Assembly: GCA_030706635.1 (NCBI GenBank)
Contig: JAUZOD010000028.1
Location: 1 to 48,046 of the forward strand
DNA length: 48,046 nt
Origin: Bacteroidota bacterium
GTDB taxonomy: Bacteria > Bacteroidota > Bacteroidia > Chitinophagales > Chitinophagaceae
Direction of reading: 5' to 3'
Shown here: positions 2,488-36,885 of the stretch, piece by piece
Numbering within the stretch: the stretch's first letter is position 1
Layout: each line of letters starts with the position of its first letter
Notes under the pieces: generated by a model
The model's input: the letters and a program-made list of their open reading frames with translations, nothing else
Told to the model about the DNA's origin: nothing
The model's database searches: none
Translations under genes and position numbers: made by a program

Positions 2488-2934
2488 CTAAATTTTCTGA
2501 CCCGGCTGCCTGAGCGTGGCAATACAAATCCTGTTCCACGAATTGATGGTTACAACGGCCATAATCAGTTGTGCGGTGCCCGCTTCACCAAAATGCTGAA
2601 TGGCCTGTTCGTAGGTTTTGGAGGTTAATCCGCGTTTATGGATCATGGTTATCTCTTCCGTCATGGCCAGGATCAGCTTTTCCTCCTCATTGAATTGCGG
2701 AGATTCACTCCAGGCATTGAGCAGATAAAGACGCTGCTCTGTTTCACCGAGTTTACGGGCATCCCGGGTATGCATATCCAGGCAAAAGGCACAAGCATTT
2801 ATTTGGGACGCCCGCACCTTAATCAATTCTTTATATAAAGGATTAATGGGACTGGCAGCCATATATTTCTCCAAAGCCTGCATGGCGGCGTAGGCGTCCG
2901 GCTGAACGTCCTTCATGGAAAATCTTTCTTTCAT
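2488..2934 (-). CDS. AhpD-like carboxymuconolactone decarboxylase family protein
   Basis: A 148-residue protein of the AhpD/CMD fold. The redox-type motif is intact: Cys48-x-x-Cys51 with His55 (ACAFCLDMH), preceded by the usual 'LIKVRASQIN' helix. In characterised AhpD proteins these residues support alkylhydroperoxidase activity with a lipoyl or thiol partner. The substrate here is unknown. The ATG at 2932-2934 gives the standard family length. A broken AHSA1-type gene follows on the same strand. It is only distantly similar to the four larger CMD proteins at 27.3-30.9 kb. Confidence 0.87.
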   Translation of the reverse strand: MKERFSMKDVQPDAYAAMQALEKYMAASPINPLYKELIKVRASQINACAFCLDMHTRDARKLGETEQRLYLLNAWSESPQFNEEEKLILAMTEEITMIHKRGLTSKTYEQAIQHFGEAGTAQLIMAVVTINSWNRICIATLRQPGQKI

Positions 2935-9400: not shown

Positions 9401-11688
9401 CCAATTCAAGAACGGAGGAACTGCTGGCACAATCACAGTCCTTAACCGATGAACTAAGAAGAACGAACGAGGAATTACAGGATAAAGCGCACCTGCTGGC
9501 AAAACAAAAGGAGGAGGTGGAAGATAAGAACAATGAAGTAGAAGAAGCCAGAAAATCGCTTGAAGAAAAAGCCGCCCAGTTGCAGCTCACATCAAAATAC
9601 AAGTCGGAATTCCTGGCGAATATGTCGCACGAGCTTCGTACACCGTTAAATTCCCTGCTTATTCTTGCCCAGCAATTGTTCGAAAATCACGATGGCAACC
9701 TGACGGAAAAACAGGTACGCTATGCAAAAACGATCCATAGCTGTGGGGATGATCTGATTCAGCTGATCAATGATATCCTGGATCTCTCCAAGATCGAATC
9801 CGGCTATATTTCAACAGACTTTATAAAAGTCAATTTCCTGGAAATTGCCGCTTTTGTAGAAACCACGTTTAAACACATTTCAGAAAACAAAAATCTGCGG
9901 TTCAATATAGAGCTGGATGAACATTTACCCGATAACCTGGAAACAGACGTTCAACGTCTTAACCAGATTCTGAAAAACCTGCTTTCCAATGCATTTAAAT
10001 TTACCGAAAAGGGAGAAGTCAAACTCAGGATCTACCAGGCCAATAAAAACTGGAAGCAGGAAAATCTAAGTCTCGATAGCGCTAAAAAAGTCGTTGCCTT
10101 TGAAATCAGCGATACCGGCATAGGCATTTCAAAAGATAAACAAAACATCATTTTTGAAGCCTTCCAACAGGCGGAAGGCTCCACGAGCCGGAAATACGGG
10201 GGTACCGGACTGGGCCTCTCCATCAGCCGCGGACTGGCAGACCTGCTGGGCGGAACAATCGAGTTGGAGAGCGAAGCGGATCAGGGAAGCCGGTTTACCT
10301 TATTCCTTCCGCTGGAATACAATGCCAGTCATGTTAAAAAAGAAAAACAAAGCAGTTTAACTTTCAGTGAATACAAAATACTGGAGCAGGACAACGATGC
10401 CTCCTCCATCCAGTCCGTCCCAACAGTAAAACTTCCCGACGTCAGAGACCTGGAAAAGATGAATGAGATCATTAATAGCACCGGTGACGACCGTCATTCG
10501 ATTACACCGGAAAGCAAAGTGGTATTAATTATCGAAGATGACATCCGGTTCGCGAAAATCATGATGGAAAAAGCGCACGAGATGAACCTCAAGGCTATTG
10601 TGGCTACAGAGTTTTCCGACGTTTTCTCCCTGATTAACAAATTCAATCCCATAGCCATTACCCTGGATGTAAAATTACCTGATGCCAGCGGATGGCGGAT
10701 ACTTGACCTGTTTAAGAACGATATCAATCTCCGGCACATTCCCGTCCATTTGATTTCAGGTGAGGAAAATAAATTGCTGGGTATGCAGCGGGGCGCACGG
10801 AGTTTCAATCTAAAGCCGCTAAAAAACGAGTCACTCACTTTATTATTCAACGACATCGCGGAGTACCATGAGCGAAAACAAAAAAAATTATTGCTCGTTG
10901 AGGACAATAAAATAGAATCATCCCGGATAGCCAGGCTTTTGGCAAATGAAAAGTTGCTGCAGATTGAAATTGCCAGTACAGGCAGGGAAGCCGTGGAACT
11001 GCTCAAAGAAAATGTTTACGATTGCATCGTCGTAGATTATCTGCTCCCCGATACATTCGGAATGGATCTGGTGATGGAAATAACCGAAATAAATAAATCC
11101 CGGATAGTTCCCATCATCATCCATTCCTCCAAGGATTTCAAACCCAGGGAGAAAATGCAGCTCAGGCAATATGCCAACAGGATATTACTAAAGGATGTGA
11201 AGTCGTCCGAGCTGCTGCTGGAGGAAGTGGTTACCCATCTTCATCAGGATCACCGGTATTTGCTTCCGGAGCAAAAAAAGATAATAGAAAACCTGCGATC
11301 AAAAGAAGACATCCTCTCTAACAAGACTGTTCTGGTGGTTGACGACGATGTAAGAAATCTTTTTGCCCTGACCACAGCTTTCGAAAGATACAATATGAAA
11401 GTGATCACGGCAGAAAGCGGACAGGAAGCCATCGATATACTGAGTGAAAACAAAAAGGTAGATATGCTCCTGATGGATATCATGATGCCCGAGATGGACG
11501 GATATGAGACGACTCAGAAAATAAGGCGGGAACATAAGAATAATCAACTACCCATCATTGCCGTGACGGCAAAGGCCATGAAGGGCGACCGGGAAAAATG
11601 CATTGAAGCAGGCGCCTCCGATTATATCCCCAAACCCGTCAAGATAGACCAGTTATTATCTTTAATGCGGGTATGGCTCTATAAATAA
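6433..11688 (+). CDS. Giant soluble poly-HAMP hybrid histidine kinase with three receivers
   Basis: A 1751-residue protein without membrane segments or a signal peptide. Order: divergent HAMP-like N-terminus (about 30-110); tandem HAMP units with a 92-residue period (about 123-822), seven carrying a G-T/V-WKDLT motif; GAF domain (about 826-992); coiled coil; HisKA with phospho-acceptor His1066 ([10 protein letters not shown]); HATPase (about 1172-1293, GTGLGLSIS box); and three receivers with Asp1412, Asp1535 and Asp1682. The architecture resembles fungal group III (Nik1/Os-1) kinases, which use 92-residue HAMP repeats for osmosensing, and similar bacterial proteins. The first two receivers lack the canonical MP after the Asp (DVKLPD, DYLLPD); the third is textbook (DIMMPEMDG). 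The REC-kinase gene starts 6 bp downstream. Confidence 0.95.
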
Positions 11689-11694
11689 AAATGA

Positions 11695-12981
11695 ATGGAT
11701 CTGACAGCCAAACGAACACACACTAATCTTAAGCGCACTTTGCCGGCGGTGAAAATACTCGCGGTGGATGACCGCGAAGATAACTTGCTGTCCATTGAAA
11801 CGATTCTTGAAAAAGAGGGGTACGAAATTGTTAAGGCAGACTCCGGAAGGGCCGCGTTAAAATTACTTTTGAAAGTGCATGACTTCTCTCTTATCCTGAT
11901 GGACGTTCAGATGCCGCTGATGGACGGTCTGGAAACAGCGACACTCATTTACGAAAGGGACAAGCTCAAACATATTCCGATCATTTTCATAACGGCTCAC
12001 GGATACGGCCATGACCTGATGTTCAAAGGATTCAAGATGGGCGCTGTGGATTATATTCACAAACCCATCGATCCGGCATTGTTGCGGTTCAAAGTGGGCG
12101 TTTTTATAGAACTATTTCATAAAACCAATGAACTGATTCTACAGGAAGAAAAGCTGAAAGCAATAAATCAGTCCTTGCAATCGGAAATAGAAGAGAGACG
12201 TAATTCGGAGCGAAGAGTTACTACACTTAATCAGCAATTGATCGAAAGCAATTCGGAATTGAAAGAAATTAATGAAGAACTGGACCGGTTTGCTTTTGTT
12301 GCCTCCCATGATTTGCAGGAACCACTGCGCAAGATATTATTGTTTAACGACATGATCTCCCAAAGGCTGGGAGACAGTCTGGACAAAGCCACCGCGGATT
12401 ATATCCGGAAGGTAAATAATGCAACCGGGCATATGAAATTGCTGGTGAATGATCTGCTGAAGTATTCCAGGAAAACCCAAACCCCGGAGGATTTCAAAAC
12501 GACGAATCTGAATGATCTGCTAACCGAGGTGATCTCTGACCTGGAGATGGATATCAAAAAAACAAAAGCCAGTATTCTCATAAGTCCCCTCCCCGATCTG
12601 GTTGTATTACCCACCCAGATGAAACAATTGTTTCAAAACCTGTTCAGCAATTCTCTTAAATTCAGCAAACCCGGTGGTATTCCTGAAATTGAAATCTCCA
12701 GTGAGCTCGCGACGATAGAAAATGAGGCCGAAAACAACGGGAAGCAAATCAGATTTCACAAAATTTCCTTCAAAGACCATGGCATCGGATTCGATACCAA
12801 ATATGCCGACGATATCTTCACGGTTTTCAAGCGGCTCCATAGCTATCATGAGATAGAAGGAAGTGGCATCGGATTATCCATTTGTAAAAAAATCGTAGAA
12901 AGGCATCGCGGAACCATAGCAGTACAAAGCGAACCAGGCATCGGATCTACGTTCATTGTTACGCTTCCGGAGACGCAATGA
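11695..12981 (+). CDS. Response regulator-histidine kinase fusion
   Basis: A 428-residue cytoplasmic protein. An N-terminal receiver (about residues 18-135) has acidic residues in VDDRED, phospho-acceptor Asp70 in LILMDVQMPLMDG and the Lys in YIHKP. A long coiled coil follows (about 137-196). The C-terminal kinase has a HisKA with His205 (FVASHDLQEPLRKI, phytochrome-type box) and an HATPase ending in SGIGLSICKKIVERH. Starting 6 bp after the giant kinase, it is almost certainly cotranscribed and could receive phosphate from it through Asp70. The ATG at 11695 is used; an overlapping out-of-frame ATG lies at 11691. A small GACGC/GCGTC hairpin spans the stop codon but lacks a T-tract. Confidence 0.93.
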   Translation: MDLTAKRTHTNLKRTLPAVKILAVDDREDNLLSIETILEKEGYEIVKADSGRAALKLLLKVHDFSLILMDVQMPLMDGLETATLIYERDKLKHIPIIFITAHGYGHDLMFKGFKMGAVDYIHKPIDPALLRFKVGVFIELFHKTNELILQEEKLKAINQSLQSEIEERRNSERRVTTLNQQLIESNSELKEINEELDRFAFVASHDLQEPLRKILLFNDMISQRLGDSLDKATADYIRKVNNATGHMKLLVNDLLKYSRKTQTPEDFKTTNLNDLLTEVISDLEMDIKKTKASILISPLPDLVVLPTQMKQLFQNLFSNSLKFSKPGGIPEIEISSELATIENEAENNGKQIRFHKISFKDHGIGFDTKYADDIFTVFKRLHSYHEIEGSGIGLSICKKIVERHRGTIAVQSEPGIGSTFIVTLPETQ

Positions 12982-24225: not shown

Positions 24226-25146
24226 TCCCATCCATTAGACCTGACGGGAGCCGTGGATGTGATTAAAGACACCGATCTTGTAAAAGGAAGCCCCACGAAT
24301 ATCGTTTCAGCCCTGCAGGGTAAGGTAGCTTTTGAACCGGGCCCACGCCGCGCAGTCTGCCCTATCCCGAAGAGCTTCAGCGATCCGCTTCGAATCCTGA
24401 TTCGATGGTTGATTTCAAAGGACCCAATGATTGTATCGGCCACAGCACCAACTGGCAGAACGGGATCTTTAAAACGGGGATAACAAATAATTATTCCCTG
24501 AATTTTTCCGGTTCTGATGATAAAGGCAGTTAACTCGTTTCCGGAAGTTATCTGGATCAGAAGGGTGTTATCCTGAATTCAAAATTTAACCAATATGGGA
24601 TCCGGGCGAATATTACCCGGAAAATTAATAACTGGCTGAGCTTTGGTTCGAACACGAATTTCAACAAGTCGCTGAATCAACTGGTAAAAACCAATAACGA
24701 AGACCTTAGCGGTGGCGTTGGCGTGGTAAAAGCTGCACTGGCTTTTGCGCCCGCGGCGCCACTCTACGATTCCGGCACCTCGTTCCTTGTCCTTACACCT
24801 TCAACGGCACAGGCGCCAACGGATATGCTGACGACTATTATGCAGGTCCCGGCAACGAGAATCTGAAATGGGAAACCACGAATCAGTATGATGGAGGTCT
24901 CGACCTGTCCTTTCTAAAAAACCGGATCACTTTTCATGCAGACGTATATTATAAAAGGACGCACGATCTTTTGCAGAACATCACCATACCAGCTTCTACC
25001 GGATTTTCCACCCAACTGGTGAACCGCGGCGAAGTGGAAAACAAGGCATTGGAACTCACTTTAACGCAATTCCCGTCAGCAATCATGATTTCACCTGGAA
25101 TCCTTCCGGCAACATTTCCTTCAACGCGGGTCCCAGTCTGCTGTTA
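24226..25146 (+). pseudogene. Shattered SusC/RagA-type TonB-dependent receptor
   Basis: Fragments of one receptor appear in order but in different frames. The plug segment LTGAVDVIKDTDLVKGSPTN with VSALQGKVA lies at 24241-24336. A barrel segment starts at 24438 (NWQNGIFKTG); in it an in-frame TAA at 24531 interrupts 'DDKGS-LVSGSYLDQKGV', and it continues to about 24780. A late barrel segment from about 24791 (GNENLKWETTNQYDGGLDL) suffers a 1-nt deletion near 25064 and then reads IPVSNHDFTWNPSGN. Large pieces between and after the fragments are missing. It is clearly inactive, and no SusD remnant follows. Confidence 0.85.
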
Positions 25147-25168
25147 ACAGCTCCCGGTCTTCGCCGGC

Positions 25169-25423
25169 AGTTCCGATAATATTTCTGAAATTGCTTATAA
25201 GGCCGGCTATAGTAGTATCGCCTATTTCAACCGGTCGTTTAAAAGGCAAAAAGGGTTGTACACCAAAAGAATACCGGAAAAAATTGTCATTGCCCAAGCC
25301 GAAAATGCGGATATCTTCCAAGGCCTATGGGATGGTTTAGCGGTATCCCGTCCTCTGCATAGCAGAATACTCAACCCGGGCGTCTTCATACGGAGTTTTT
25401 TTGAAATAGATAAGGTTATTTGA
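25169..25423 (+). pseudogene. AraC-family regulator, C-terminal helix-turn-helix remnant
   Basis: An 84-codon open stretch without a start codon. Its first part is the second AraC helix-turn-helix (NISEIAYKAGYSSIAYFNRS, then FKRQKG). The rest is unrelated low-information sequence up to the TGA at 25421. The N-terminal sensor and the first DNA-binding helix are absent. It abuts the receptor remnant on the same strand, so a deletion has probably fused the ends of two formerly separate genes. Confidence 0.75.
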
Positions 25424-25459: not shown

Positions 25460-26017
25460 TTGAGAAAAGTTGCTGCGATATTCCTTCAGTGCATCCTGCT
25501 GTTTAACATCGCGGGATATCGTGCCTGGTTCTACTATGCAGAACGGAATGCAGATATAAAAATGGAGGCATCCCTGGACAATAATGAATACAACGAGGCC
25601 GATCTGGTCACGCTCCGCGTTCCCCTCAACATGCCTTATCAAATAGACAATGCCCGTTTTGAACGAGTAAATGGAGAATTCAGTTTCGAAGGTAAAATTT
25701 ACAAGTATGTAAAACGTAGGGTCAGCAATGGCACCCTTGTTTTATTATGCCTTCCGGATGTTCAAAAAATGCACCTGAGGAAAGCAAAAACAGAATACGG
25801 CAACTATGCCAATGATATAAGTTCTTCTTCCAATAAAAATACGGGGCGTTCCGATTTACAAAAAAATCATTCCTGCAGCGAATACGAAGCTTTTCTGTTC
25901 CGTTTCAGTATACCGTCCATACTGCCGGCAAATTCCCGGATCATGGATAACACACAGGCCAGCCTTCCGGAATCTACGATAGCAGCACCCGCCAAACCTC
26001 CGCAGACGCTTGCCTGA
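25460..26017 (+). CDS. Uncharacterised exported protein (TTG start)
   Basis: A 185-residue protein beginning at a TTG (25460) that directly precedes a signal-anchor helix (about residues 4-26, 'VAAIFLQCILLFNIAGYRAWFYYA' region). A polar extracytoplasmic domain follows, with repeated Asn/Glu/Lys-rich segments and the recognisable 'LVTLRVPLNMPYQID' and 'GKIYKYVKRRV' stretches. I recall similar proteins next to TonB-dependent receptor genes in Chitinophagaceae, but I know no function. No ATG exists until residue 35, so TTG is the best start. The DUF3179 gene follows at 55 bp. Confidence 0.65.
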   Translation: MRKVAAIFLQCILLFNIAGYRAWFYYAERNADIKMEASLDNNEYNEADLVTLRVPLNMPYQIDNARFERVNGEFSFEGKIYKYVKRRVSNGTLVLLCLPDVQKMHLRKAKTEYGNYANDISSSSNKNTGRSDLQKNHSCSEYEAFLFRFSIPSILPANSRIMDNTQASLPESTIAAPAKPPQTLA

Positions 26018-26072: not shown

Positions 26073-27257
26073 ATGTATCGATTACCGTTGATAACCGGCA
26101 TCGTGCTATTATTTCTGACCGAAATAACCAGGGTTTATTTCATCATGCCATTTCCCGGAAGCCAGCATGCAGATACCATCTGCCTCGCTTACTTCATCGG
26201 CAGGAATAAATGGATCCTGCGGATCATCGGGGTCGTGCTGGTTACATTCCCGGTCTATCGGATTTTTACAAGGGACAGACTTTGGAAGAGGATTTTACTT
26301 GCCACCGTTTTGATTTTTTATGGCATCATATTCTTCCTGTTCAATTTCCGCTTCGAAGCAGATAAAATGTTTTATCAGCCGACCCATAAAAATTTCGCGA
26401 CCGCAGTTAATAATACAATGGACAGCACCCGGCTGGTTATCGGAGTTGAAATCAATGGAGAAGCAAAAGCCTTTCCCATCCAGATCATCGGCTATCATCA
26501 CCAGGTGAGGGATACCATCGGCCATACACCAGTGATGATCACCTATTGCACAGTTTGCAGAACCGGGCGGGTTTATAGTCCAATGATCAATGGCCATCCG
26601 GAAAGTTTTCGCCTGGTCGGAATGGATCATTTCAACGCGATGTTCGAGGATCAGACCACCAAAAGCTGGTGGCAACAGGCAACAGGGATTTCGATAGCCG
26701 GGCCTTTGAAGGGTTCATCATTGAAAGAAATCCCCTCCCGTCAGCTGACCCTGGCAGCGTGGCTTCGGAAATATCCGGATACCAAGATCCTTCAGGCAGA
26801 CACTTTGTACAAAGAACAATACAAAGACCTCGCTGATTTTGACAAGGGAACCATCAAAGGGAGTCTCGAGAAACGGGATTCCGCATCCTGGAAGAAAAAA
26901 TCCTGGGTGATTGGGGTGAGAATGCCCGACCATGACAGAGCGTATGACTGGAACGAACTGGTTTTACATTCCATCATTCAGGACAGCATCGCCGGTTATC
27001 CCATCATGATCCTCCTGGAAAAAGATACTGCTTCTTTTTATGTTTTCAACAGGAATGTAGATGGCCGAACCCTTTGGTTTACAAAAACCCTCAACAGCCC
27101 AATGCTAACGGATACTAATACCCGTTCCTTGTGGAATATAGAAGGGCTTTGCGTGAGCGGAGCCTTAAAAGACAAACAGATGCAATCCGTTCCTGCTTAT
27201 CAGGAATTCTGGCACTCCTGGAAACAATTTCATCCGAATACCACCCAATACCAATAA
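26073..27257 (+). CDS. DUF3179 domain membrane protein
   Basis: A 394-residue protein with three N-terminal hydrophobic segments (about residues 3-25, 47-64 and 74-94) and a large DUF3179 domain after residue 105. The domain shows the family's PIQIIGYHHQVRDTIG region and a conserved Cys pair in TYCTVCRTGRVY (near residue 158), which might bind metal or form a disulfide. The domain is probably periplasmic and its function is unknown. It precedes the first CMD gene by 9 bp, so it belongs to the same operon. Confidence 0.85.
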   Translation: MYRLPLITGIVLLFLTEITRVYFIMPFPGSQHADTICLAYFIGRNKWILRIIGVVLVTFPVYRIFTRDRLWKRILLATVLIFYGIIFFLFNFRFEADKMFYQPTHKNFATAVNNTMDSTRLVIGVEINGEAKAFPIQIIGYHHQVRDTIGHTPVMITYCTVCRTGRVYSPMINGHPESFRLVGMDHFNAMFEDQTTKSWWQQATGISIAGPLKGSSLKEIPSRQLTLAAWLRKYPDTKILQADTLYKEQYKDLADFDKGTIKGSLEKRDSASWKKKSWVIGVRMPDHDRAYDWNELVLHSIIQDSIAGYPIMILLEKDTASFYVFNRNVDGRTLWFTKTLNSPMLTDTNTRSLWNIEGLCVSGALKDKQMQSVPAYQEFWHSWKQFHPNTTQYQ

Positions 27258-27266
27258 TCATTCATC

Positions 27267-27839
27267 ATGGCATACATCCAACTCAACAATCAGCTGCCCG
27301 GCATTACCGGCTTACTGGAAAACCGGAAAGATACCGGTGCCCCTATCCGCGAACTTACCCAGATCCTGCTTCGCGGAGAAAGTACACTTACGGAAATGGA
27401 GCGGGAACTGATCGCCACCATCGTTTCTTACCGCAACCAATGCCGCTTCTGCACCAATGCGCACAGCGCAACCGTAATCGCTCTTGGCGGAGATGCTGAC
27501 CTACTGGATAAAATCTATCATGATCCGGAAAACGCGCCGGTGAGTGAAAAAATGAAAGCCCTGCTGGCCATCGCAGCTAAAGTGCAGGAACTCGGAAAAT
27601 CGGTAAAGGAAGAGCATATCAGCAGGGCGAAAAAAGCCGGCGCAACTGATTTGGAAATTCACGACACGGTGCTGATAGCCGCCTTGTTCTGTTTGTACAA
27701 TCGTTACGTGGACGGTCTGGGGACTTATTGTCCTGAAGATCCTGCTTACTATCAAAAGCTGGCTTCGCGACTGGCGACCATGGGTTATGGAAGTCCGAAA
27801 GATCCGGGCGTACGCATAGGCGAGGAGAGCTTTAAATAA
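27267..27839 (+). CDS. CMD-family peroxidase-related protein, paralogue 1
   Basis: A 190-residue protein of the carboxymuconolactone decarboxylase/AhpD fold (uncharacterised peroxidase-related branch). It has Cys59-x-x-Cys62 and His66 (QCRFCTNAH), preceded by ERELIATIVS, plus the C-terminal signature 'EIHDTVLIAA' and NRYVDGL. The same plan recurs in three genes downstream. In AhpD the CxxC/His set supports peroxide reduction; other CMD proteins decarboxylate lactones. There is no signal peptide. It is the most N-terminally diverged copy and has a C-terminal extension. The MFS gene follows after 19 bp. Confidence 0.88.
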   Translation: MAYIQLNNQLPGITGLLENRKDTGAPIRELTQILLRGESTLTEMERELIATIVSYRNQCRFCTNAHSATVIALGGDADLLDKIYHDPENAPVSEKMKALLAIAAKVQELGKSVKEEHISRAKKAGATDLEIHDTVLIAALFCLYNRYVDGLGTYCPEDPAYYQKLASRLATMGYGSPKDPGVRIGEESFK

Positions 27840-27858
27840 CAAGACCAAATATTTAACA

Positions 27859-29136
27859 GTGAATGCAAATACCATAGAGCGTCCTGAAACCATGGCAATT
27901 CCGCTGCTGAAGGAAATTCATGTTCAGAAATACAAACGGGCACTGTTTATGATCTGCTTTTTCAGCAGTTTGTTTGGAGGCACCGTCTCCACTTTGATGT
28001 CTGTTTATTTGCCCGTGGCTGTAAAAGACCTGATGAGCAATACAAGTTCCGCGCAGTATGATAATATTACCGCTTACATCAGCGCGCTTTTTATATTCGG
28101 CTGGATGGTCGGCGGAATTCTTTGGGGCATCCTTTGTGATACCCTCGGCAGAAAAAAATCATTTATCTACGCTACACTGTGTTATGGCCTGTTCACTTTA
28201 ACGACTGCTGTTGCGCCTTCCTGGTTTATGGTTGTCGTCAGCCGGTTCATGTCGGGCTTTGGGATTGGTGGCGTACTGGTGATCACCACGATGCTGGTGT
28301 CTGAAGGTTATCAGGAAAAAAGAAGGGCCGTTCTGCTGGGCATTTTATCCATTTCGATTCCCGTCGGCATTTTTTCTGCCGGCCTCATTAATTATTTTGT
28401 CTCTTATTGGCGCTATGCATTCGTTGTGGGTGCGATACCGGTTGTGCTATCCGGACTGGCCGCCATTTTCTTTACAGAATCGGAACTGTGGCGAAGTGCA
28501 CAACGAAAAGGGATTCAGGCAAGAAATAACCTCAGGCAATTGTTCAATAATGAAAACGGCAAACACCTGGTCATGGGCTCGCTCATTTTCGGTACCGCCC
28601 TGATTGGCCTGTGGGCCACTTTTTCATGGCTTCCTTCCTGGATACAGAGCCTGATCCAGGGAGCAGGAGGACAAAAAGAACGGGGGCTCGCCATGATGAT
28701 GATGGGGGGCGGTGGTTTGCTGGGCGGTTTTGTTTCCGGATGGATCGTAAACGCCATCGGTGTTAAAAAAACACTGCTCCTGTGTTTCGGTATTTCCTTT
28801 ATCCTTTCTGTGATCTTATTCAAATTAACCACGGTCCTTTCTACTGCTGTGTATTTCCAGATTGCCCTGATCACTATTTTTTTCGGCATGAGCCAGGGAG
28901 CACTCTCGGTGTATATCCCCGATCTGTTTCCTGTCTCGCTTCGCGCAACGGCCACCGGAGTATGTTTTAATCTGGGTCGTTTCTTTACAGCAGTAGCTGT
29001 TTTTTTCATCGGTTCTCTGGTTGATTTTTTAGGCGGGTATGGGAATGCCATTTTCTGGTTCTCTTTTGTTTTCCTTATCGGATTCGTGATCACCTTTTTC
29101 AGTAAACCAGCTATTTACGCACAACAATCAAAATAG
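27859..29136 (+). CDS. MFS transporter
   Basis: A 425-residue, 12-helix major facilitator. The loop 2-3 signature is present as GILWGILCDTLGRKKSF (near residue 90), and 'SRFMSGFGIGGVLVITTMLVSE' is typical of the sugar/organic-acid or aromatic-acid symporter branch. The GTG at 27859 gives the longest frame; an ATG at 27892 is an alternative that would remove 11 polar residues. It is embedded between CMD paralogues 1 and 2 (gaps 19 and 6 bp), so it probably moves the substrate or product of those enzymes. Confidence 0.9.
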   Translation: MNANTIERPETMAIPLLKEIHVQKYKRALFMICFFSSLFGGTVSTLMSVYLPVAVKDLMSNTSSAQYDNITAYISALFIFGWMVGGILWGILCDTLGRKKSFIYATLCYGLFTLTTAVAPSWFMVVVSRFMSGFGIGGVLVITTMLVSEGYQEKRRAVLLGILSISIPVGIFSAGLINYFVSYWRYAFVVGAIPVVLSGLAAIFFTESELWRSAQRKGIQARNNLRQLFNNENGKHLVMGSLIFGTALIGLWATFSWLPSWIQSLIQGAGGQKERGLAMMMMGGGGLLGGFVSGWIVNAIGVKKTLLLCFGISFILSVILFKLTTVLSTAVYFQIALITIFFGMSQGALSVYIPDLFPVSLRATATGVCFNLGRFFTAVAVFFIGSLVDFLGGYGNAIFWFSFVFLIGFVITFFSKPAIYAQQSK

Positions 29137-29142
29137 ACCATC

Positions 29143-29685
29143 ATGGCATATATACCCGTTCAGGAAGGCTTACCGGGCATCAGAAGCCTGGTTCAATACA
29201 GACCGGAAACAGGAAAACCATTGTACGATTTAGTGCAGATCCTGCTGAGAGGGCCTTCCCCTTTAAGCCCCGCAGAGCGGGAGTTAATCGCGGCTTATGT
29301 TTCCAGCCGGAACGAATGCGGGTTTTGCATGAACAGTCATGCTGCCGCTGCACGCTGTTTGTATGGAGATCAAGAACAAATCGTGGATGATCTGTTGTAT
29401 AAAAATAATCAAACGGAGCTCTCTGAAAAAATGCAGGCCCTCCTGGCTATCGCCGGCAAAGTACAAAAGCTCGGAAAATCAGTCAGTCCACAGGATATTG
29501 AAACAGCGAGAAAAGCCGGCGCACAGGATGAGGATATTCATGACACCGTATTGATCGCAGCTACTTTTTCGCTCTTCAACCGGTACGTGGATGGGCTGGC
29601 AAGCTTTACCCCGACAAACGAATCGGCTTATGAAGCAATGGGAAAACGAATGAGTGAAAACGGATACGTGTTTCCTAACCAATAA
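29143..29685 (+). CDS. CMD-family peroxidase-related protein, paralogue 2
   Basis: A 180-residue CMD/AhpD-fold protein with Cys59-x-x-Cys62 and His66 (ECGFCMNSH), ERELIAAYVS before it, and DIHDTVLIAA and NRYVDGL later. It is the shortest of the four copies. It starts 6 bp after the MFS stop. It shares 'KLGKSV' and 'SEKMQALLAIAGKVQ' features most closely with paralogue 1. The four copies differ enough to be old duplications rather than recent amplification. Confidence 0.88.
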   Translation: MAYIPVQEGLPGIRSLVQYRPETGKPLYDLVQILLRGPSPLSPAERELIAAYVSSRNECGFCMNSHAAAARCLYGDQEQIVDDLLYKNNQTELSEKMQALLAIAGKVQKLGKSVSPQDIETARKAGAQDEDIHDTVLIAATFSLFNRYVDGLASFTPTNESAYEAMGKRMSENGYVFPNQ

Positions 29686-29696
29686 AAATAAAACGT

Positions 29697-30248
29697 ATGG
29701 CATACATCGATTTAAGAAATGAACTGCCGGGAATCCGCGGGCCGATGGTCTACCGGCCCGAAACCGGAAAAGTATTAAATGAGCTCGCGGAAATATTATT
29801 GCATGATGAGAACAATACACTTTCCCGGGGGGAAAGGGAACTGATCGGGACATACGTCTCCTCGGAGAATGATTGTTTTTTCTGTCAGAACGTGCATGGC
29901 GCCATGGCCCAGCACTATATGAAATCCGATATGCAGTTCATCGACCGGATAAAAAAAGACTTTCAGGCAACGCCGATCTCAGCGAAGTTAAAATCCCTTC
30001 TGGCGATCGCAGGAAGTGTTCAAAAGGGTGGAAAACAGGTAACGCCCGAGCAGATCGAATATGCCAAAAGTCTTGGTGCTACTGACCGCGAAATCCACGA
30101 TACCGTGTTGATCGCTGCTGCGTTCTGCATGTTCAACCGCTATGTGGACGGGCTGAATACCTGGGCTCCCCAGGACCGGCAGATATATGTGGACCGTGCC
30201 CCCATGCGGGCTGCAGAAGGATATTCACAAGCCGGTCTGGTAAAATAA
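29697..30248 (+). CDS. CMD-family peroxidase-related protein, paralogue 3
   Basis: A 183-residue CMD/AhpD-fold protein with Cys60-x-x-Cys63 and His67 (DCFFCQNVH; one residue is inserted upstream relative to the other copies). ERELIGTYVS, EIHDTVLIAAAFCMFNRYVDGL (in pieces) and the shared N-terminal 'LPGIRG...YRPETGK' pattern are all present. Start at the ATG 29697, 11 bp after paralogue 2. It is closest to paralogue 4 by eye (both have KGGK/QGGKSV-type loops and AAAFCMFNRY). Confidence 0.88.
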   Translation: MAYIDLRNELPGIRGPMVYRPETGKVLNELAEILLHDENNTLSRGERELIGTYVSSENDCFFCQNVHGAMAQHYMKSDMQFIDRIKKDFQATPISAKLKSLLAIAGSVQKGGKQVTPEQIEYAKSLGATDREIHDTVLIAAAFCMFNRYVDGLNTWAPQDRQIYVDRAPMRAAEGYSQAGLVK

Positions 30249-30276
30249 ACATTTTTAATTTCTTAAAAACAAACAC

Positions 30277-30861
30277 ATGCCTTATATCGATGTCGACAAA
30301 AACCTGCCGGGTATCAGGTCTCTTATGGCCTTCCGCCCGGAAACCGCGAAACCCCTGTCTGACCTGGCAGAAGCGCTGTTAAGGGATAATACAGGCCTTT
30401 CCCGTGCGGAAAGGGAACTCATCGCTACTTATGTTTCGTACCTGAACGATTGTTTTTACTGCCATAATTCGCACGGGGAACTCGCGGTTTGTTATCTCGA
30501 CGGAAACCGCGAACTGGTGGATGCGGTAAGAAAAGATTACCGGAATGCAGACATATCCGAAAAATTAAAAGCGCTGTTGCAGATTGCAGGGAAAGTGCAG
30601 CAGGGAGGAAAGTCCGTACTGCCGGAGAATATTGAAAATGCTAAACGGCATCAGGCTACGGACCGGGATATTCACGATACCGTTTTAATAGCCGCGGCCT
30701 TCTGCATGTTTAACCGATATGTGGACGGACTTGCCTCAACGGCTCCCAAAGACATGTCTTCCTATCCACTCCGGGCTAAACAGGTGGCTGAAAACGGGTA
30801 TGGTCCGCATATCTATTCAACTGCACAACCGCAGGCTTCCTCCGAAGAGATCCATGCATAA
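30277..30861 (+). CDS. CMD-family peroxidase-related protein, paralogue 4
   Basis: A 194-residue CMD/AhpD-fold protein with Cys59-x-x-Cys62 and His66 (DCFYCHNSH), ERELIATYVS and DIHDTVLIAAAF followed by NRYVDGL. The C-terminus carries an extra polar tail (about residues 180-194) absent from copies 2 and 3. It ends 37 bp before the SusC start, which ties the enzymatic block to the outer-membrane uptake pair. All four copies are leaderless and so probably cytoplasmic. Confidence 0.88.
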   Translation: MPYIDVDKNLPGIRSLMAFRPETAKPLSDLAEALLRDNTGLSRAERELIATYVSYLNDCFYCHNSHGELAVCYLDGNRELVDAVRKDYRNADISEKLKALLQIAGKVQQGGKSVLPENIENAKRHQATDRDIHDTVLIAAAFCMFNRYVDGLASTAPKDMSSYPLRAKQVAENGYGPHIYSTAQPQASSEEIHA

Positions 30862-30898
30862 ATCATAAACCAAAACAAACTTCTAACACTAATTCGCA

Positions 30899-33856
30899 AT
30901 GAGAAAATTCAAACTTCTAGCAGCCTTACTGCTGTATATCGTTATGCTGCCGACCGTATCATCGGGGCAGAACAGGCCTGTTAGCGGAACGGTGACCGAA
31001 CTCAATGGGAAACCCATATCCGGTGCAACTGTGCAGGTTAAGGGAACCACGATGGGAACCGTAACGGATGAGGCTGGAAAGTTCAAATTATCCGCGCCCT
31101 CCAACGCCAGTATTATCATCAGCTCCACCGGGTTTCGCAGCCAGACAGTCAAACTGGAAGAAAATGCCTCCAACCTCTCCCTTGTACTGGAGGAAGATGT
31201 TGCCAAACTAGATGAAATCATCATAACCGGTCTTTCAACCAGCGTGAAGCGAAGGAACCTCGCCAATGCAGTCGCCACCATTTCCGCCACGGAATTGAAC
31301 GGCGTTGCTGCGTCACAGACTTTTGACGGGGCGCTCAACGGGAAAATTCCCGGGGCTTATATCAATGCCAATACCGGCGCACCCGGCGGAGGCATGTCAG
31401 TAAAATTAAGAGGAGTAACTTCCGTTTACGGGAATACCCAACCGCTTTATGTGGTGGACGGCGTTTTTGTTGATAACAGCGCCACATCTGCAGGATTAAA
31501 CGTAATCACCGGCGCCCTGGCCGGCGGTTCCGTCACATCCAACCAGGACAACCCATCGAACCGCATTTCCGATATCCGTCCTGAAGAAATCGAAAATGTC
31601 GAGATCTTAAAAGGAGCTTCTGCCGCTGCCATCTACGGTTCAAGAGCGGCCGGAGGCGTTATCATCATCACAACGAAAAAAGGAAGACCCGGCCCAACCC
31701 GGATCACCCTTTCCCAGGATCTGGGCGAGATTAAAGCCAGTAAACTGCTGGGCGTTCGCCAATTCACGGCACAGAGGGCCGCCAGTTTGAGTAACGACAG
31801 CGCCACCGGAGTTGCCCTGAGCCAGGAATTTCTCGCAGCACAGTCGGCAGGAAAAATTTACGATTATGAGAAAGAAGTTTTTGGCAATACCGGGTTTGCA
31901 CGCAATACCTTATTGAGCATGAGCGGAGGCAATGAAAAAACAACCTTTTATTTTTCCGCCGCGCAAAAAGACGAAGGAGGCATTGTAAAGAATACAGGGT
32001 ATAGAAACAGCAGCCTCCGGTTCAATGCCGAACACCATGTTTCGGATAATGTCAAATTGACCATCAGTACGAATTATATCAATTCCGGCGCCGGCAGAAG
32101 TCTGACGGGAAATGATAATAAAGGCGTCTCCCTTGGCATTGCGCTTTCGTCCACGCCGGGTTTCGCAGAACTGCATCCGGATAAACTCGGCAATTTTCCA
32201 AATGACCCCTTCGCTTCCTCAAATCCTCTGCAGACAATTGCACTCATGCGTAATAATGAATCCGTAAACCGGTTTATCAGCGGGCTCACGCTGGGCGCCA
32301 CATTCCAAAGAAGCACAAAGAGTACTACCAAATTTGTTGCACAGGGCGGATTTGATTTTTACAACCTCGAAACGAATGTCCTTTTCCCCAGTGTATTACA
32401 ATTTCAGGCTGTCAACAAGGGAACTTCCATCCAGGGCTTTACGAAAAACCTAAATACGAATTATATTCTTTCCCTGGTAAACAGTCTTACGGTTTCCGAT
32501 AAATTATCATTGACCACTTCGGCCGGGCTTACGCAGGAAAGCGGAGATTATAATAATTTGCTGAACGTGGCCACCCAGGTCATTTCAGGTCAGTCCAATG
32601 TGGACCAGGCCGGTGCACTCACAGCAACCCAATTCAGAACACGATTTGAGAATGATGGGGCGTTCATACAGGAAGAAGCCAGCATCATGGATGCGATAAC
32701 CTTAACGGGCGGTGTACGGTTCGACCGCTCATCCAATAACGGTGATGCCAACAAATACTATGCTTATCCGAAGGCAGGCATTTCCTGGAATCTGACCCGC
32801 AGCGGCATTTTCAGCAGGGAAGGAATCTTTGATAATTTCAAAGTCCGGGCAGCTTACGGCGAGGCAAATAATGTTCCGGCGTATGGAAGCAAGTTCACCT
32901 CCATGGTGGTTTCCAATATTGAGGGTTTACCGGGATCACTGATCAATATCCAGAGAGGTCAGCCGGGAATAAAACCGGAAAGACAAACCGAATTTGAAGC
33001 TGGCTTCGATTTCAGTGTATTGAAAGGCGCATTGAGTTTTGAAGCAACTTTTTACGACAAGCACATTTTCGATTTCCTGATGCAAAGCAATCTGCCTTCT
33101 TCTTCGGGGTTCAGCACCAGCTGGCTCAACGCGGGCAACTTACGTAATCAGGGCGTTGAACTCGGCTTAAATGCCCGGCCCGTTTCGTCCAGGACCATTA
33201 CCTGGAATACTTCCCTGAATTTCTGGATAAACCGTTCGCTGGTTACCAAACTCACCATACCGCCGACACCCCAGGGTTCCTTCGGATATATACTGGGAAC
33301 ATTCCAGATAGAACAGGGAAAATCGGCAACCCAGATCATAGGCCTTGGCGGCCCCGGCGGCAGCATTGTGAAGTGGGGAGATGCAGAGCCTAAATTCCAG
33401 ATGAATACGTATAATGAAATTACCTTTCTGGATAAATGGAGCTTCCGCTTTTTGCTCCATTTGAAGGCGGGCGGACAAAACGTAAATCTCACGAGCCTGG
33501 AAAATGATTTTGGCGGCACCAGCGCCGACTATGATAAGGTCAGCAACAAACTGGGTGTGCCGGATGCCATTTACCGGATCATGTCGATCGGGTCAACAGC
33601 AAAAGAATTTGTTCAAAACTCCGGATACCTGAAACTGCGCGAAATTGGACTGTATTATAGCATCCATAAAATCCCTGTAAGTTATGTGAAAGGAATTCGC
33701 ATCGGGGTTTCACTCACTAATTTTTTAACGGTCACCAAATACAAGTCGTACGATCCTGAAGTTTCCAATTTCGGAGCCGGTTTTTCCAGCGGAGTGGATG
33801 TTGATCCATACCCTGCATCCAAACGGGCCGATTTTCATATTTCAATGGATTTTTAA
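30899..33856 (+). CDS. SusC/RagA-type TonB-dependent outer-membrane transporter
   Basis: A 985-residue protein with a signal peptide (about 1-23, ending SSGQ), an N-terminal carboxypeptidase-like regulatory domain (about 25-95; 'VSGTVTELNGKPISGATVQVKG' in pieces), a plug domain (about 105-260; 'QPLYVVDGV', 'ENVEILKGASAAAIYGSRAAGGVI' in parts) and a 22-strand barrel region to the C-terminus, which ends in an aromatic (MDF). It imports a ligand across the outer membrane with TonB energy, together with the SusD lipoprotein 32 bp downstream. The plug family differs from the shattered receptor at 24.2-25.1 kb, so they are not recent duplicates. Confidence 0.95.
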   Translation: MRKFKLLAALLLYIVMLPTVSSGQNRPVSGTVTELNGKPISGATVQVKGTTMGTVTDEAGKFKLSAPSNASIIISSTGFRSQTVKLEENASNLSLVLEEDVAKLDEIIITGLSTSVKRRNLANAVATISATELNGVAASQTFDGALNGKIPGAYINANTGAPGGGMSVKLRGVTSVYGNTQPLYVVDGVFVDNSATSAGLNVITGALAGGSVTSNQDNPSNRISDIRPEEIENVEILKGASAAAIYGSRAAGGVIIITTKKGRPGPTRITLSQDLGEIKASKLLGVRQFTAQRAASLSNDSATGVALSQEFLAAQSAGKIYDYEKEVFGNTGFARNTLLSMSGGNEKTTFYFSAAQKDEGGIVKNTGYRNSSLRFNAEHHVSDNVKLTISTNYINSGAGRSLTGNDNKGVSLGIALSSTPGFAELHPDKLGNFPNDPFASSNPLQTIALMRNNESVNRFISGLTLGATFQRSTKSTTKFVAQGGFDFYNLETNVLFPSVLQFQAVNKGTSIQGFTKNLNTNYILSLVNSLTVSDKLSLTTSAGLTQESGDYNNLLNVATQVISGQSNVDQAGALTATQFRTRFENDGAFIQEEASIMDAITLTGGVRFDRSSNNGDANKYYAYPKAGISWNLTRSGIFSREGIFDNFKVRAAYGEANNVPAYGSKFTSMVVSNIEGLPGSLINIQRGQPGIKPERQTEFEAGFDFSVLKGALSFEATFYDKHIFDFLMQSNLPSSSGFSTSWLNAGNLRNQGVELGLNARPVSSRTITWNTSLNFWINRSLVTKLTIPPTPQGSFGYILGTFQIEQGKSATQIIGLGGPGGSIVKWGDAEPKFQMNTYNEITFLDKWSFRFLLHLKAGGQNVNLTSLENDFGGTSADYDKVSNKLGVPDAIYRIMSIGSTAKEFVQNSGYLKLREIGLYYSIHKIPVSYVKGIRIGVSLTNFLTVTKYKSYDPEVSNFGAGFSSGVDVDPYPASKRADFHISMDF

Positions 33857-33888
33857 ACCCAGGACCAATTAAAAATAAAAATTTACAG

Positions 33889-35187
33889 ATGAAATCAATT
33901 ATCATAAACAGTCTGCTACTGCTGAGCCTTAGCGCTGTATTATTTTCCTGCAAAAAAGATTTTGGCAACCTGAACAGTCCAACCGTAGAAAGCTTCCTGG
34001 GCAATGCCGCACAAAGCGATCTCAATAACCTCGTCAGCGGTACCGAATCCGGACTTCGCACCAGCCTCGCCTTTTACCTCGATGATGTGGGCACCATTGG
34101 CAGGGAAGGATATCATTTTTCCGCTTCGGAACCCAGATACGTAACCGATCTGCTCGGTGCTGACGCAGCTACCCTGAGCAATAGTAATTTTTACATCAAC
34201 ACACCCTGGGCCAATGCTTACCGGGTAGTTAAAAACTGTAACCTGCTTATCCAGGCGGCAAACAATTCCACGCTCATTACGTCTGATCAAAAAAGCGGTT
34301 ATTATGGCTTCGCAAGAACCATTAAAGCCTATCAGCTTTTACTAAACCTTAACCTGACGGACTCCAATGGAATCAGGCTCGATGTGAGCGATCCGGATAA
34401 CCTCGGTCCAATTGTTTCCTATTCAGAAGGGCTGGCCGGCATCCTGGCATTGCTTGACTCTGCAAAAGCAGATCTCTCCGCCGGTTCGGTTGTTTTTTCT
34501 CTGTCGTCTGGTTTCAACGGATTTAATGATGCCGCAGGCTTAATTAAATTCAACCGGGCTCTGGCAGCCCGCGTCGATGCATACCTGGCCAACTGGCCGG
34601 ATGTTTTAACCGCACTCAGTGAATCCTTTTTTAGTCTGACCGCAGATTTTAACCTGGGTGTAAATCATGTGTTCGGAACAGGAACGGGCGATCAGCTCAA
34701 TCCCATGTTCTTTCCCCAAAACCAAACAGGAGAAGTGCGGGTAGCCCATCCGTCTTATGCAACCGATATACAGCCCGGGGACGACCGTATTTCAAAAGCC
34801 ACTTTGCGGCAGGCAACCGCGTCCCTCTCAGGATTAAGCAGTAACCGGGACGTTTGGGTGTACACTTCCAGCACGGCGCCCGTACCGATCATCAGGAATG
34901 AGGAATTAATTCTGCTGTATGCTGAAGCCAATATTCAGAACAGCAACTTTCCGGAAGGGGAAAAGGCTTTAAATATCATCCGGAACGGACATCATCTGCC
35001 AAACTATTCCGGACCGGTAACCAAAGATGCCCTGATAGATGAAATGCTTTACGAAAGAAGATACTCCTTATTTTTCGAAGGTCACCGCTGGATTGATATG
35101 CGGCGGTATAACAGATTAAATGAATTACCACTCGACCGGACGGGGGATGATATATGGTCTGAATTCCCATTGCCCGTATCGGAATAA
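33889..35187 (+). CDS. SusD/RagB-type substrate-binding lipoprotein
   Basis: A 432-residue lipoprotein with a lipobox ending at Cys near residue 21 (AVLFSCKKDF). The SusD/RagB C-terminal signature is clear (EMLYERRYSLFFEGHRWIDM and RRYNRL), and a TPR-like helical core surrounds 'WANAYRVVKNCNLLI' and 'GFARTIKAYQLL'. It sits on the outer membrane as the lid of the SusC channel. It is somewhat shorter than most glycan-binding SusD proteins, and no glycoside hydrolase gene lies in the same operon, so the ligand need not be a polysaccharide. A strong terminator follows. Confidence 0.93.
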   Translation: MKSIIINSLLLLSLSAVLFSCKKDFGNLNSPTVESFLGNAAQSDLNNLVSGTESGLRTSLAFYLDDVGTIGREGYHFSASEPRYVTDLLGADAATLSNSNFYINTPWANAYRVVKNCNLLIQAANNSTLITSDQKSGYYGFARTIKAYQLLLNLNLTDSNGIRLDVSDPDNLGPIVSYSEGLAGILALLDSAKADLSAGSVVFSLSSGFNGFNDAAGLIKFNRALAARVDAYLANWPDVLTALSESFFSLTADFNLGVNHVFGTGTGDQLNPMFFPQNQTGEVRVAHPSYATDIQPGDDRISKATLRQATASLSGLSSNRDVWVYTSSTAPVPIIRNEELILLYAEANIQNSNFPEGEKALNIIRNGHHLPNYSGPVTKDALIDEMLYERRYSLFFEGHRWIDMRRYNRLNELPLDRTGDDIWSEFPLPVSE

Positions 35188-35222: not shown

Positions 35223-35250
35223 AAAGGCCCCTGATTCTTCAGGGGCCTTT
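35223..35250. terminator. Rho-independent terminator shared by convergent genes
   Basis: A perfect 12-bp stem (35223-35234 with 35239-35250, core GGCCCCTGA) with a 4-nt loop. On the minus strand it ends in a run of T (A-tract at 35221-35225); on the plus strand only TTT follows. It closes the SusD operon and the convergent 534-residue protein gene. Confidence 0.9.
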
Positions 35251-35280: not shown

Positions 35281-36885
35281 TCACTCCAGAACGGTCACCT
35301 CTGAACCCTGTAAACGACGGATGAACAACACACCGCCCTGGTCTAACGATTTCCACCGGTACCCCTGCTGTTCACTACTATTTTCCTCGGAAATGGCTTT
35401 ACCATTTAGCAAAACGGCCGACGGTTTTTGGGTCATGCGAATGGTTTCGGTACCAGAACTGTCGTAGGTACGATAGAAAACGCGCAAACGACTGATGTTC
35501 TCTTCTTTCACTTCTGTCATCAGAAATTTATGGGCCTGCCCTCTGTAATCCACCCGTTGTATCACTGAACTGCTGGATACAATATGATCTGCCGTGGAGG
35601 GCGCCAATTCGGGATAAACAGCCATGGACCGGAGAAGATGACGCACATAATCACCATATCCGTCTGTCAGCCAGATTTCATCTTTGGGGTAACGGTTATG
35701 GCCATCCGCATTCACCATATACGTTGACCATGACAATTGCCGGATGGCATTTGCTTTTCGTGCCGTATCGCGGCTAAGGAATGAATATAAAAGTTCTGCA
35801 GCGGCTTCCCTGGAAGTATGACTTTGTCCGGGTACATGGTAAGCAGACTGTTCATTCACTACCGTTACACCATATTTTTTCCAGGTTTCATTTCCCAGAT
35901 CATGATAAATCCAATCAAAGATACCAGACACCTGTTTTTGCCAGTCTGGAAAATATATTCTGTATTCCATAATAAACCGGGCAAACGTGATGGCGTTAAT
36001 CTGGGTATTACTCCAGCCCGGAACATCTTCAAAAAACGGACCCCAGCGGTTATTCTTCAGTGGATAAGCCTTCATCCAGTTCAGCAAAACCTGAAAACTT
36101 TTTTGATAAACATCCGCATGCGTTGGATCAAGTTGCTGCAATGCCAGGAAAAGCTCCATCGTACCGCACCAGTTGGATGTGTAACGGGAAACATCTGTTG
36201 TTTCACCGGTATATGCGTTTACCTTAAAGGGTAAAGGAGAATGATCATAATCGCCCGGCTGCAGATGAGCAGCCAGTGTATGGGCTATTTTGATGGCTGC
36301 ATCGAGGTATTTTGCGCGGGTAGTTTGCATGTAATACTCGCTGCTGCACATCTTGTACAGATGGATCAGTTCCAGTGCAAAAGAGCCGGCTTTATCAGGC
36401 TGAAGAAAGCCCGGACCAATCATCATATCGCCGTCAAATACCCCTGAAAAAATCAGCGTATTATAGGGAAATGGCAGATCCGGCCACTGGCAGCCGGACG
36501 GCGAAAGGGAGTGGGAAAGATAATAATCCGCAATGAATTTCATATTCTGTTTAACCCGCTCGTTACCCGAATAGGCATACAGCAGCTGCCAGGAAGAAAG
36601 AGCCATCTGCAGCTGGTCACCACCAAGACCACGTGCATCATCTAAACCCGGCGTCCAGACCATGTGGTTCATATAATACGGCAACCCGTTCAGGTCGGTA
36701 CGCATGGTATCCCAGAAGTTCCAGACCCTGTTTATGATATAATCAAAAGACGTTCCGGGATCATCATTATACCAGGGTTTGATAATGCCTTTTCCATCCG
36801 TGCGGATGTTGTGATAACCCAGTTTTTCCTGGGCGTGCAGCGAAGGGAAAAGGAAGAGGCAGAGACATAAAACGAATGGCTTCAT
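35281..36885 (-). CDS. Secreted alpha/alpha-toroid (six-hairpin glycosidase-like) protein
   Basis: A 534-residue exported protein (signal peptide about 1-18, ending SLHAQ). The central 400 residues are helical with spaced aromatic/His/Asp motifs: 'FDYIINRVWNFWDTM', 'GLGGDQLQMALSSWQLLYAYSG', 'SNWCGTMELFLAL' and 'HTSREAAAELLYSFL'. These resemble six-hairpin glycosidase or lyase folds, followed by a beta-rich tail (about 430-534). No catalytic pair can be assigned. It is convergent with the SusD gene and could act on the same extracellular material, but shares only a terminator with it. Confidence 0.6.
   Translation of the reverse strand: MKPFVLCLCLFLFPSLHAQEKLGYHNIRTDGKGIIKPWYNDDPGTSFDYIINRVWNFWDTMRTDLNGLPYYMNHMVWTPGLDDARGLGGDQLQMALSSWQLLYAYSGNERVKQNMKFIADYYLSHSLSPSGCQWPDLPFPYNTLIFSGVFDGDMMIGPGFLQPDKAGSFALELIHLYKMCSSEYYMQTTRAKYLDAAIKIAHTLAAHLQPGDYDHSPLPFKVNAYTGETTDVSRYTSNWCGTMELFLALQQLDPTHADVYQKSFQVLLNWMKAYPLKNNRWGPFFEDVPGWSNTQINAITFARFIMEYRIYFPDWQKQVSGIFDWIYHDLGNETWKKYGVTVVNEQSAYHVPGQSHTSREAAAELLYSFLSRDTARKANAIRQLSWSTYMVNADGHNRYPKDEIWLTDGYGDYVRHLLRSMAVYPELAPSTADHIVSSSSVIQRVDYRGQAHKFLMTEVKEENISRLRVFYRTYDSSGTETIRMTQKPSAVLLNGKAISEENSSEQQGYRWKSLDQGGVLFIRRLQGSEVTVLE

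Follow-up and report, generated by a model that had tools for sequence, protein, structure and literature searches.

A conserved Bacteroidota gene cluster of AhpD-like proteins, a DUF3179 protein and exchangeable outer-membrane importers, possibly for taking up an organic small molecule and converting it by thiol-redox chemistry

We analysed a stretch of 48,046 nucleotides (the window) from a soil-type Bacteroidota bacterium of the family Chitinophagaceae (GenBank assembly GCA_030706635.1, contig JAUZOD010000028.1, positions 1 to 48,046). It contains a cluster of four AhpD-like proteins of the carboxymuconolactone decarboxylase (CMD) family, a transporter of the major facilitator superfamily (MFS), a DUF3179 protein and a SusC/SusD pair. 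The locus is real and conserved, and it is a new arrangement of known parts. Tentatively, with a probability of roughly 0.4, we read it as a Bacteroidota uptake unit that would import an organic small molecule and convert it by thiol-redox chemistry. We observed its gene content, its recurrence, the separation of its CMD proteins into clades, the replacement of its importer and the invariant residues. The eight open reading frames (ORFs) are all on the plus strand and span 26073-35187, with gaps of 9, 19, 6, 11, 28, 37 and 32 bp. According to Pfam their order is DUF3179, CMD, MFS, CMD, CMD, CMD, TonB receptor and SusD. A preliminary description of this DNA had listed eight genes on one strand with gaps of 6-37 bp; the ORF coordinates bear this out, and Pfam and the NCBIfam model TIGR04056 agree with the families assigned (four CMD, MFS, DUF3179, SusC/SusD).

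Relatives were collected by scanning a set of genomes with an alignment of the window's CMD quartet. CMD similarity was the sole criterion, and the best 80 of the 560 loci were compared. Many of these loci are cut by contig ends, and the gene counts are lower bounds. They come mainly from Bacteroidota of the Chitinophaga, Mucilaginibacter/Pedobacter and Spirosoma/Larkinella/Dyadobacter kinds, plus a few others. An MFS gene is present in 64 of them, a relative of a ninth gene, UP185, in 60 and a DUF3179 gene in 40, while 59 have at least two and 34 at least three of the CMD clades. Within the family, the CMD subfamily is found in 23 of 117 genomes, the window's own included (E 1e-15), and 16 of these 23 hold at least three CMD genes within about 10 kb (hand count). 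We read regions from 21 of the 22 other CMD-positive family genomes, one genome with a single weak match (G063) being left out. Orthologous SusC/SusD genes are present in 12 of the 21, or 13 of 23 counting the window. At least five genomes are represented both in the family regions and among the 80 loci (L068 and L106 are an example); the two sets are not independent. Set A2 contains 43 of the 45 collected relatives and set A3 45 of 76. The ORF caller can drop genes: CMD1 is absent from the gene string of locus L108 and present in the tree.

In locus L001 the order CMD1-MFS-CMD2-CMD3-CMD4-SusC-SusD is unbroken. The seven genes compared share 78-91% protein identity with the window, and the ratio of nonsynonymous to synonymous substitution rates (dN/dS) is 0.02-0.07 in six of the seven, with dS near saturation and not computable for CMD4. 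The preliminary description had made its proposal depend on conservation in related genomes, and the neighbourhood does recur there. A chance neighbourhood was rejected on this recurrence of the same gene set and on the unbroken order in L001. None of the titles and abstracts listed by searches of the open-licence PubMed Central (PMC) literature describes the locus. In the annotation of Spirosoma oryzicola the parts are named by family only ("carboxymuconolactone decarboxylase family protein", "TonB-dependent receptor", "MFS transporter"), and the unit goes unseen because the pieces are named in this way. In cultured relatives, the recurring set makes testable the role of the TIGR01926 proteins, that of DUF3179, and which non-glycan compounds could be imported by a SusC/SusD pair.

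The importer of the window consists of a SusC-type TonB-dependent receptor (30899..33856, plus strand; TIGR04056 485.7 bits, cut-off 368.25) and a SusD-type lipoprotein of 432 residues (33889..35187, plus strand; PF07980, E 2.2e-15). Of the 64 loci with an MFS gene, 45 carry a different TonB receptor, which usually sits between CMD1 and the MFS gene; nine have a SusC of the window lineage, ten have neither and none has both. Fisher's test gives p 3e-6 for this exclusion, a value that is too strong since the rows are related. Three loci (L069, L074, L077) have at their edge a minus-strand receptor that the TonB count excludes; each of them has another. There are at least two alternative importers, and SusC/SusD is one. 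As partners of the CMD block the two genes, as first proposed, do recur together with at least three CMD genes and the MFS gene, in 12 of the 117 family genomes, own included (hand count), but they are replaceable and occur in only nine of the 80 loci.

Where SusC is present, it is tied to CMD4. The CMD4 clade is found in all nine SusC loci of the 80, and elsewhere only in two Emticicia loci (L010, L023). CMD4 lies directly 5' of SusC in 12/12 family regions (by best-hit label) and in eight of the nine SusC loci; a UP185 relative sits between the two genes in L073. An automatic family table has CMD4 in only 8 of the 12 regions, identical rows having been removed. SusD relatives with at least 59% identity have a CMD cluster as neighbour at 13 of 15 places, and those with at most 56% at none of 14, in a family scan that in many genomes scored only 15 candidates per genome. 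The window SusD lineage is nearly confined to CMD loci. The SusD had been called short; its length is normal for the lineage, with 28 further family places aligning to at least about 400 of its residues.

The MFS gene (27859..29136, plus strand, GTG start; PF07690, E 1.2e-33) has SLC22 organic anion carriers as its nearest solved chains (best E 5.5e-14). In a few relatives esterase and Meth_synt_2 genes are found, and such neighbours would weakly fit an ester or an alkylated compound.

The four CMD proteins, all on the plus strand, are CMD1 (27267..27839), CMD2 (29143..29685), CMD3 (29697..30248) and the SusC-linked CMD4 (30277..30861). The best NCBIfam model is TIGR01926, "peroxidase-related enzyme", with a cut-off of 81.8 bits; CMD1 (94.1), CMD2 (83.9) and CMD4 (95.6) score above it and CMD3 (77.7) just below. 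The AhpD subfamily model TIGR00777 is hit by CMD2 only, with 19.2 bits against a cut-off of 191.95. None of the decarboxylase-specific NCBIfam models matched the four proteins at E 0.001, only the superfamily PF02627, and a reading as gamma-carboxymuconolactone decarboxylases is not supported. Of the proposal that the enzymes are of a redox or decarboxylase fold, the decarboxylase part finds no specific model, and the best match is the peroxidase-related one.

In a tree of 268 of 284 rows, rooted at the midpoint, the four proteins fall into four separate clades across Bacteroidota: CMD1 (96 rows, support 99), CMD2 (60 rows, weakly supported at 50), CMD3 (53 rows, 94) and CMD4 (21 rows, 82), with 38 rows outside them. 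The other 16 rows had been removed because their final 150 residues were identical to those of another row, which makes the clade counts for each locus minimum values. The clades of CMD1-3 have at most one row per locus, and CMD4 is doubled in one locus. Because of the four separate clades a recent local duplication of the quartet was rejected, with the caveats of the CMD2 support and the midpoint root.

All four proteins keep CxxC-x3-His, as had been noted earlier. Over the tree, E47, N57, C62 and H66 are invariant (268/268). C59, the first cysteine of CxxC, is Cys in 240 rows and Thr in 28. The Thr rows are confined to CMD1 (15 of 96) and CMD2 (13 of 60) and imply three or more changes over the tree; eight of the 15 Thr-bearing CMD1 rows have a cysteine one residue earlier. 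Both cysteines are kept in CMD3 (53/53) and CMD4 (21/21). The classical AhpD cycle uses both cysteines, and because the first one is Thr in some rows, CMD1 and CMD2 cannot everywhere depend on it. AhpD-type peroxidases have AhpC or Lpd/SucB as partners, and Pfam names neither among the eight genes. The nearest functional precedent is the AhpD-like RclX, which PMC7950407 describes as needed against hypochlorous acid (HOCl) and hypothiocyanous acid (HOSCN) in Pseudomonas. A CMD gene of B. thetaiotaomicron, not of this locus, appears in an iron table in PMC10434189. CMD3 relatives also occur on Streptomyces plasmids. In L200 (8001-9545) one with 46% identity precedes an oxidoreductase gene, close to a gene for an enediyne chromoprotein, and a similar CMD-oxidoreductase pair is found on another plasmid (L202). 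Three annotated regions of these relatives share no context; the fourth stretch, from Nonomuraea, is unannotated.

The DUF3179 protein (26073..27257, plus strand) matches PF11376 with 206.9 bits (E 5.7e-61; gathering score 27). Its model (predicted local distance difference test, pLDDT, 91) has helices at 3-22, 46-67 and 70-93, which we read as membrane helices. The beta domain that follows is duplicated, one half matching the other (hhalign 98.5%, E 3.6e-15). For 40 of 44 DUF3179 sequences the positive-inside count, a rule of thumb, favours placing the domain in the periplasm, and the beta domain is probably periplasmic. Among the 50 Foldseek hits listed of 452, 33 are Rieske proteins or Rieske oxygenases when sorted by title, none of the hits having E < 0.001. 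PetC3, as an example, aligns with a root-mean-square deviation (rmsd) of 2.6 and a TM-score by target of 0.63, while several long alignments have an rmsd above 16.

The Rieske cluster is bound by a CxH ... CxxH motif. All 44 close DUF3179 sequences have HHx15CxxC, which we take to be close to the Rieske ligand spacing. When six distant relatives are added, only H142 and C159 are invariant (8/8), and position 162 is Thr in two. Against 29 Rieske-motif rows, of which at least one (L178_99) looks like a chance frame, hhalign gives a probability of 0.4% for the first half, 7.3% for the second and 2.4% for the whole domain. A true Rieske protein was rejected, there being no profile similarity and the ligand motif not being kept. 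According to two reviews (PMC9312934, PMC13188914), DUF3179 is a selenoprotein family with the motif UxxC/T, and both the CMD and DUF3179 families include selenocysteine members at the Cys motif. We take this U to correspond to C159. Our reading of the protein is a Rieske-like scaffold that carries a reactive (seleno)cysteine.

DUF3179 is found at 33 places in 31 of the 117 family genomes, and 10 of the 33 are at most about 5 kb from a CMD gene (hand count), a proximity beyond chance. Twenty DUF3179 regions away from CMD show no link to the CMD set save L146 and L147, where the gene has UP185 and PAP2 genes as neighbours. Among six distant regions, three (Thiothrix, Pseudanabaena, Halomontanus) have DUF3179 near genes for thioredoxin-domain, DsrE or peroxiredoxin-like proteins; such neighbours were not seen in the other three. 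A minimal pair of CMD1 and DUF3179, with no adjoining MFS or importer gene, occurs in eight loci (L015, L018, L019, L028, L032, L050, L016, L123), six of them from Mucilaginibacter.

The eight ORFs of the preliminary description are real, but a ninth gene, UP185 (25460..26017, plus strand, TTG start), belongs to the cluster as well. Its stop is 55 bp before the DUF3179 start. It has no Pfam or NCBIfam match, and its model (pLDDT 80, predicted TM-score 0.57) shows a long N-terminal helix, which we read as a membrane anchor, and a small beta domain; a structure search with it gave no fold match (best E 0.24). UP185 is found in 56 of the 117 family genomes; in 17 of the 23 CMD-positive ones it is no more than about 10 kb away from a CMD gene (hand count). 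It is a conserved partner of the CMD cluster.

UP185 also belongs to a second gene set. Twenty UP185 regions away from CMD contain PAP2 proteins (17), a GH65 protein (9) or a trehalase (6). One representative of each was examined: the GH65 protein is above the NCBIfam cut-off for kojibiose hydrolase, the second is a trehalase, and the PAP2 protein has a vanadium haloperoxidase as its best PDB match. A recurrent locus has the order GH65 (kojibiose hydrolase type)-UP185-PAP2/haloperoxidase-like-beta-barrel(s)-PAP2-TonB receptor; it is seen within L146-L168 (e.g. L162, L166) and in the window's own genome (L165), and some copies also hold trehalase, MFS and LacI genes. In Spirosoma, Larkinella and Algoriphagus the UP185/PAP2 sugar-type set is often beside the CMD set, and the PAP2 type is present in 22 of the 80 CMD loci. 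The link between the two sets is loose.

Taken together, a possible mechanism is as follows. An organic small molecule, perhaps anionic, would be bound by SusD and pass the outer membrane via SusC, a step that another TonB receptor would take over in many relatives. The molecule may contact the periplasmic DUF3179 domain, and the MFS carrier would then pass it across the inner membrane. In the cytoplasm, three or four specialised AhpD-like proteins would convert it via their invariant Cys-His-Glu centre, most simply by reducing an oxidised or electrophilic group. Here we infer the direction of transport, the place of DUF3179, the redox chemistry and the order of the steps. In favour of such an uptake and conversion unit are the recurrent gene set, the orthologous SusC/SusD, the importer exclusion, the invariant residues, the low dN/dS, the RclX precedent and the selenocysteine members. 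Several points weigh against it. The CMD subfamily is patchy, being present in 21 of 296 genomes of an even phylum sample (E 1e-30), and DUF3179 is found in only half of the 80 loci and 10 of the 23 CMD-positive family genomes, with 23 of its 33 family places away from CMD. Neither an electron donor nor AhpC is evident in the locus, the classical two-Cys cycle is not obligatory (Thr at the first Cys in 28/268), and the MFS protein scores 139.3 bits against the aromatic acid/H+ symporter model TIGR00895, with a cut-off of 418.55. Of the original import-and-conversion idea, the analysis supports a conserved neighbourhood of transport and redox genes in which none of the eight encodes a carbohydrate-active enzyme; SusC/SusD is replaceable, and decarboxylation is not supported.

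The most unusual features are the fold of DUF3179 and the CMD proteins that have a single Cys. They could belong to a new type of pathway, a TonB- or SusC/D-fed (seleno)thiol relay with a periplasmic, Rieske-fold DUF3179 and four long-separated, non-interchangeable AhpD-fold enzymes acting on a non-glycan substrate, which we consider rather unlikely. In such a relay DUF3179 would have swapped an iron-sulfur site for a reactive Cys/Sec-His pair, and some CMDs would act with a single active-site Cys, possibly as parts of one mixed complex.

The same genes could instead serve stress protection, with RclX-like CMDs clearing reactive halogen, peroxide or related species, the MFS protein exporting the products and haloperoxidase-like neighbours in some relatives as the source of oxidant. 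RclX is a precedent for this (PMC7950407), and one PAP2 representative, from a non-CMD locus, matches a vanadium haloperoxidase with E 9.4e-18, the type being present in the 22 loci given above. However, the PAP2 proteins match acid phosphatases too and adjoin none of the window's genes, the TonB and SusC/D importers suggest uptake, and no conserved stress regulator was found in the gene clusters compared across relatives; we regard this explanation as unlikely. That the cluster is an odd polysaccharide or glycoside utilisation locus, where the CMDs act on the modified group of a sugar derivative, would explain the SusC/SusD and the UP185 shared with GH65 (9/20), trehalase (6/20) and PAP2 (17/20) regions. 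It is quite unlikely, as Pfam finds no carbohydrate-active enzyme among the eight genes, in line with the preliminary description, and the sugar-type loci are apart from CMD in the UP185 regions read.

Uptake of a siderophore-like metal chelate by TonB or SusC/D and the MFS protein, with the thiol proteins freeing the metal by reduction, would agree with the siderophore-transport term given to the Spirosoma oryzicola receptor by the Prokaryotic Genome Annotation Pipeline (PGAP). The siderophore receptor models score far under their cut-offs for the window SusC, and we find this improbable. Finally, the patchy distribution in the phylum, a copy on a Spirosoma plasmid and the flanking SusC-like remnants, a sign of local turnover, might indicate independent genes brought together by chance or mobility. 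With the same set recurring in many genera, the importer exclusion and the CMD4-SusC linkage, a neighbourhood of no joint function is highly improbable.

At the 3' end of the cluster, a perfect 12-bp hairpin (35223..35250, plus strand) between SusD and a convergent gene is a probable terminator, with a folding energy of -25.9 kcal/mol compared with -13.3 in shuffles (z -4.55). The single terminator of the preliminary description is likely, though not clean: only three T follow the stem of the hairpin on the plus strand and a simple terminator scan does not list it. The convergent gene (35281-36885, minus strand) encodes a 534-residue protein with no Pfam or NCBIfam match, and in L002 an ORF of 540 codons is in the same place. 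Upstream of the cluster, 24534-25420 contains decayed SusC-like pieces in several frames, the best being 24710-25144 (E 9e-14 to SusC); the piece at 25148-25420 may, read by eye, resemble an AraC-type helix-turn-helix tail. Elsewhere in the window, 6433-12981 includes a 1751-residue hybrid sensor kinase that has receiver domains and six HAMP stretches, and after it comes a second kinase, also with a receiver; 2488-2934 (minus strand) encodes a lone small CMD protein of another subfamily.

Compared with known systems, the locus shares with polysaccharide utilisation loci the adjacent SusC and SusD genes and the processing genes before them. It differs from them in having no carbohydrate-active enzyme among its eight genes and in the exchange of SusC/SusD for another TonB receptor in 45 of the 64 MFS-bearing relatives. 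DUF3179 may resemble Rieske domains in its predicted fold; it does not in ligand motif or sequence profile. With the DUF3179 (seleno)proteins it shares PF11376 and has Cys at the UxxC/T position, and in these Bacteroidota it is distinguished by membrane helices and by its pairing with CMD, while the six distant relatives have other neighbours. The CMD proteins match in sequence the TIGR01926 AhpD-like proteins (PDB 2pfx, 3c1l, 2prr; Pseudomonas RclX, PA0269), with six PDB sequences matched, and have the same invariant active-site-type Cys, His and Glu. Unlike RclX, a single-gene operon (PMC7950407), they are clustered, and they differ from the known AhpD-like proteins in forming four clades accompanied by importers and in the loss of the first Cys in part of CMD1 and CMD2.

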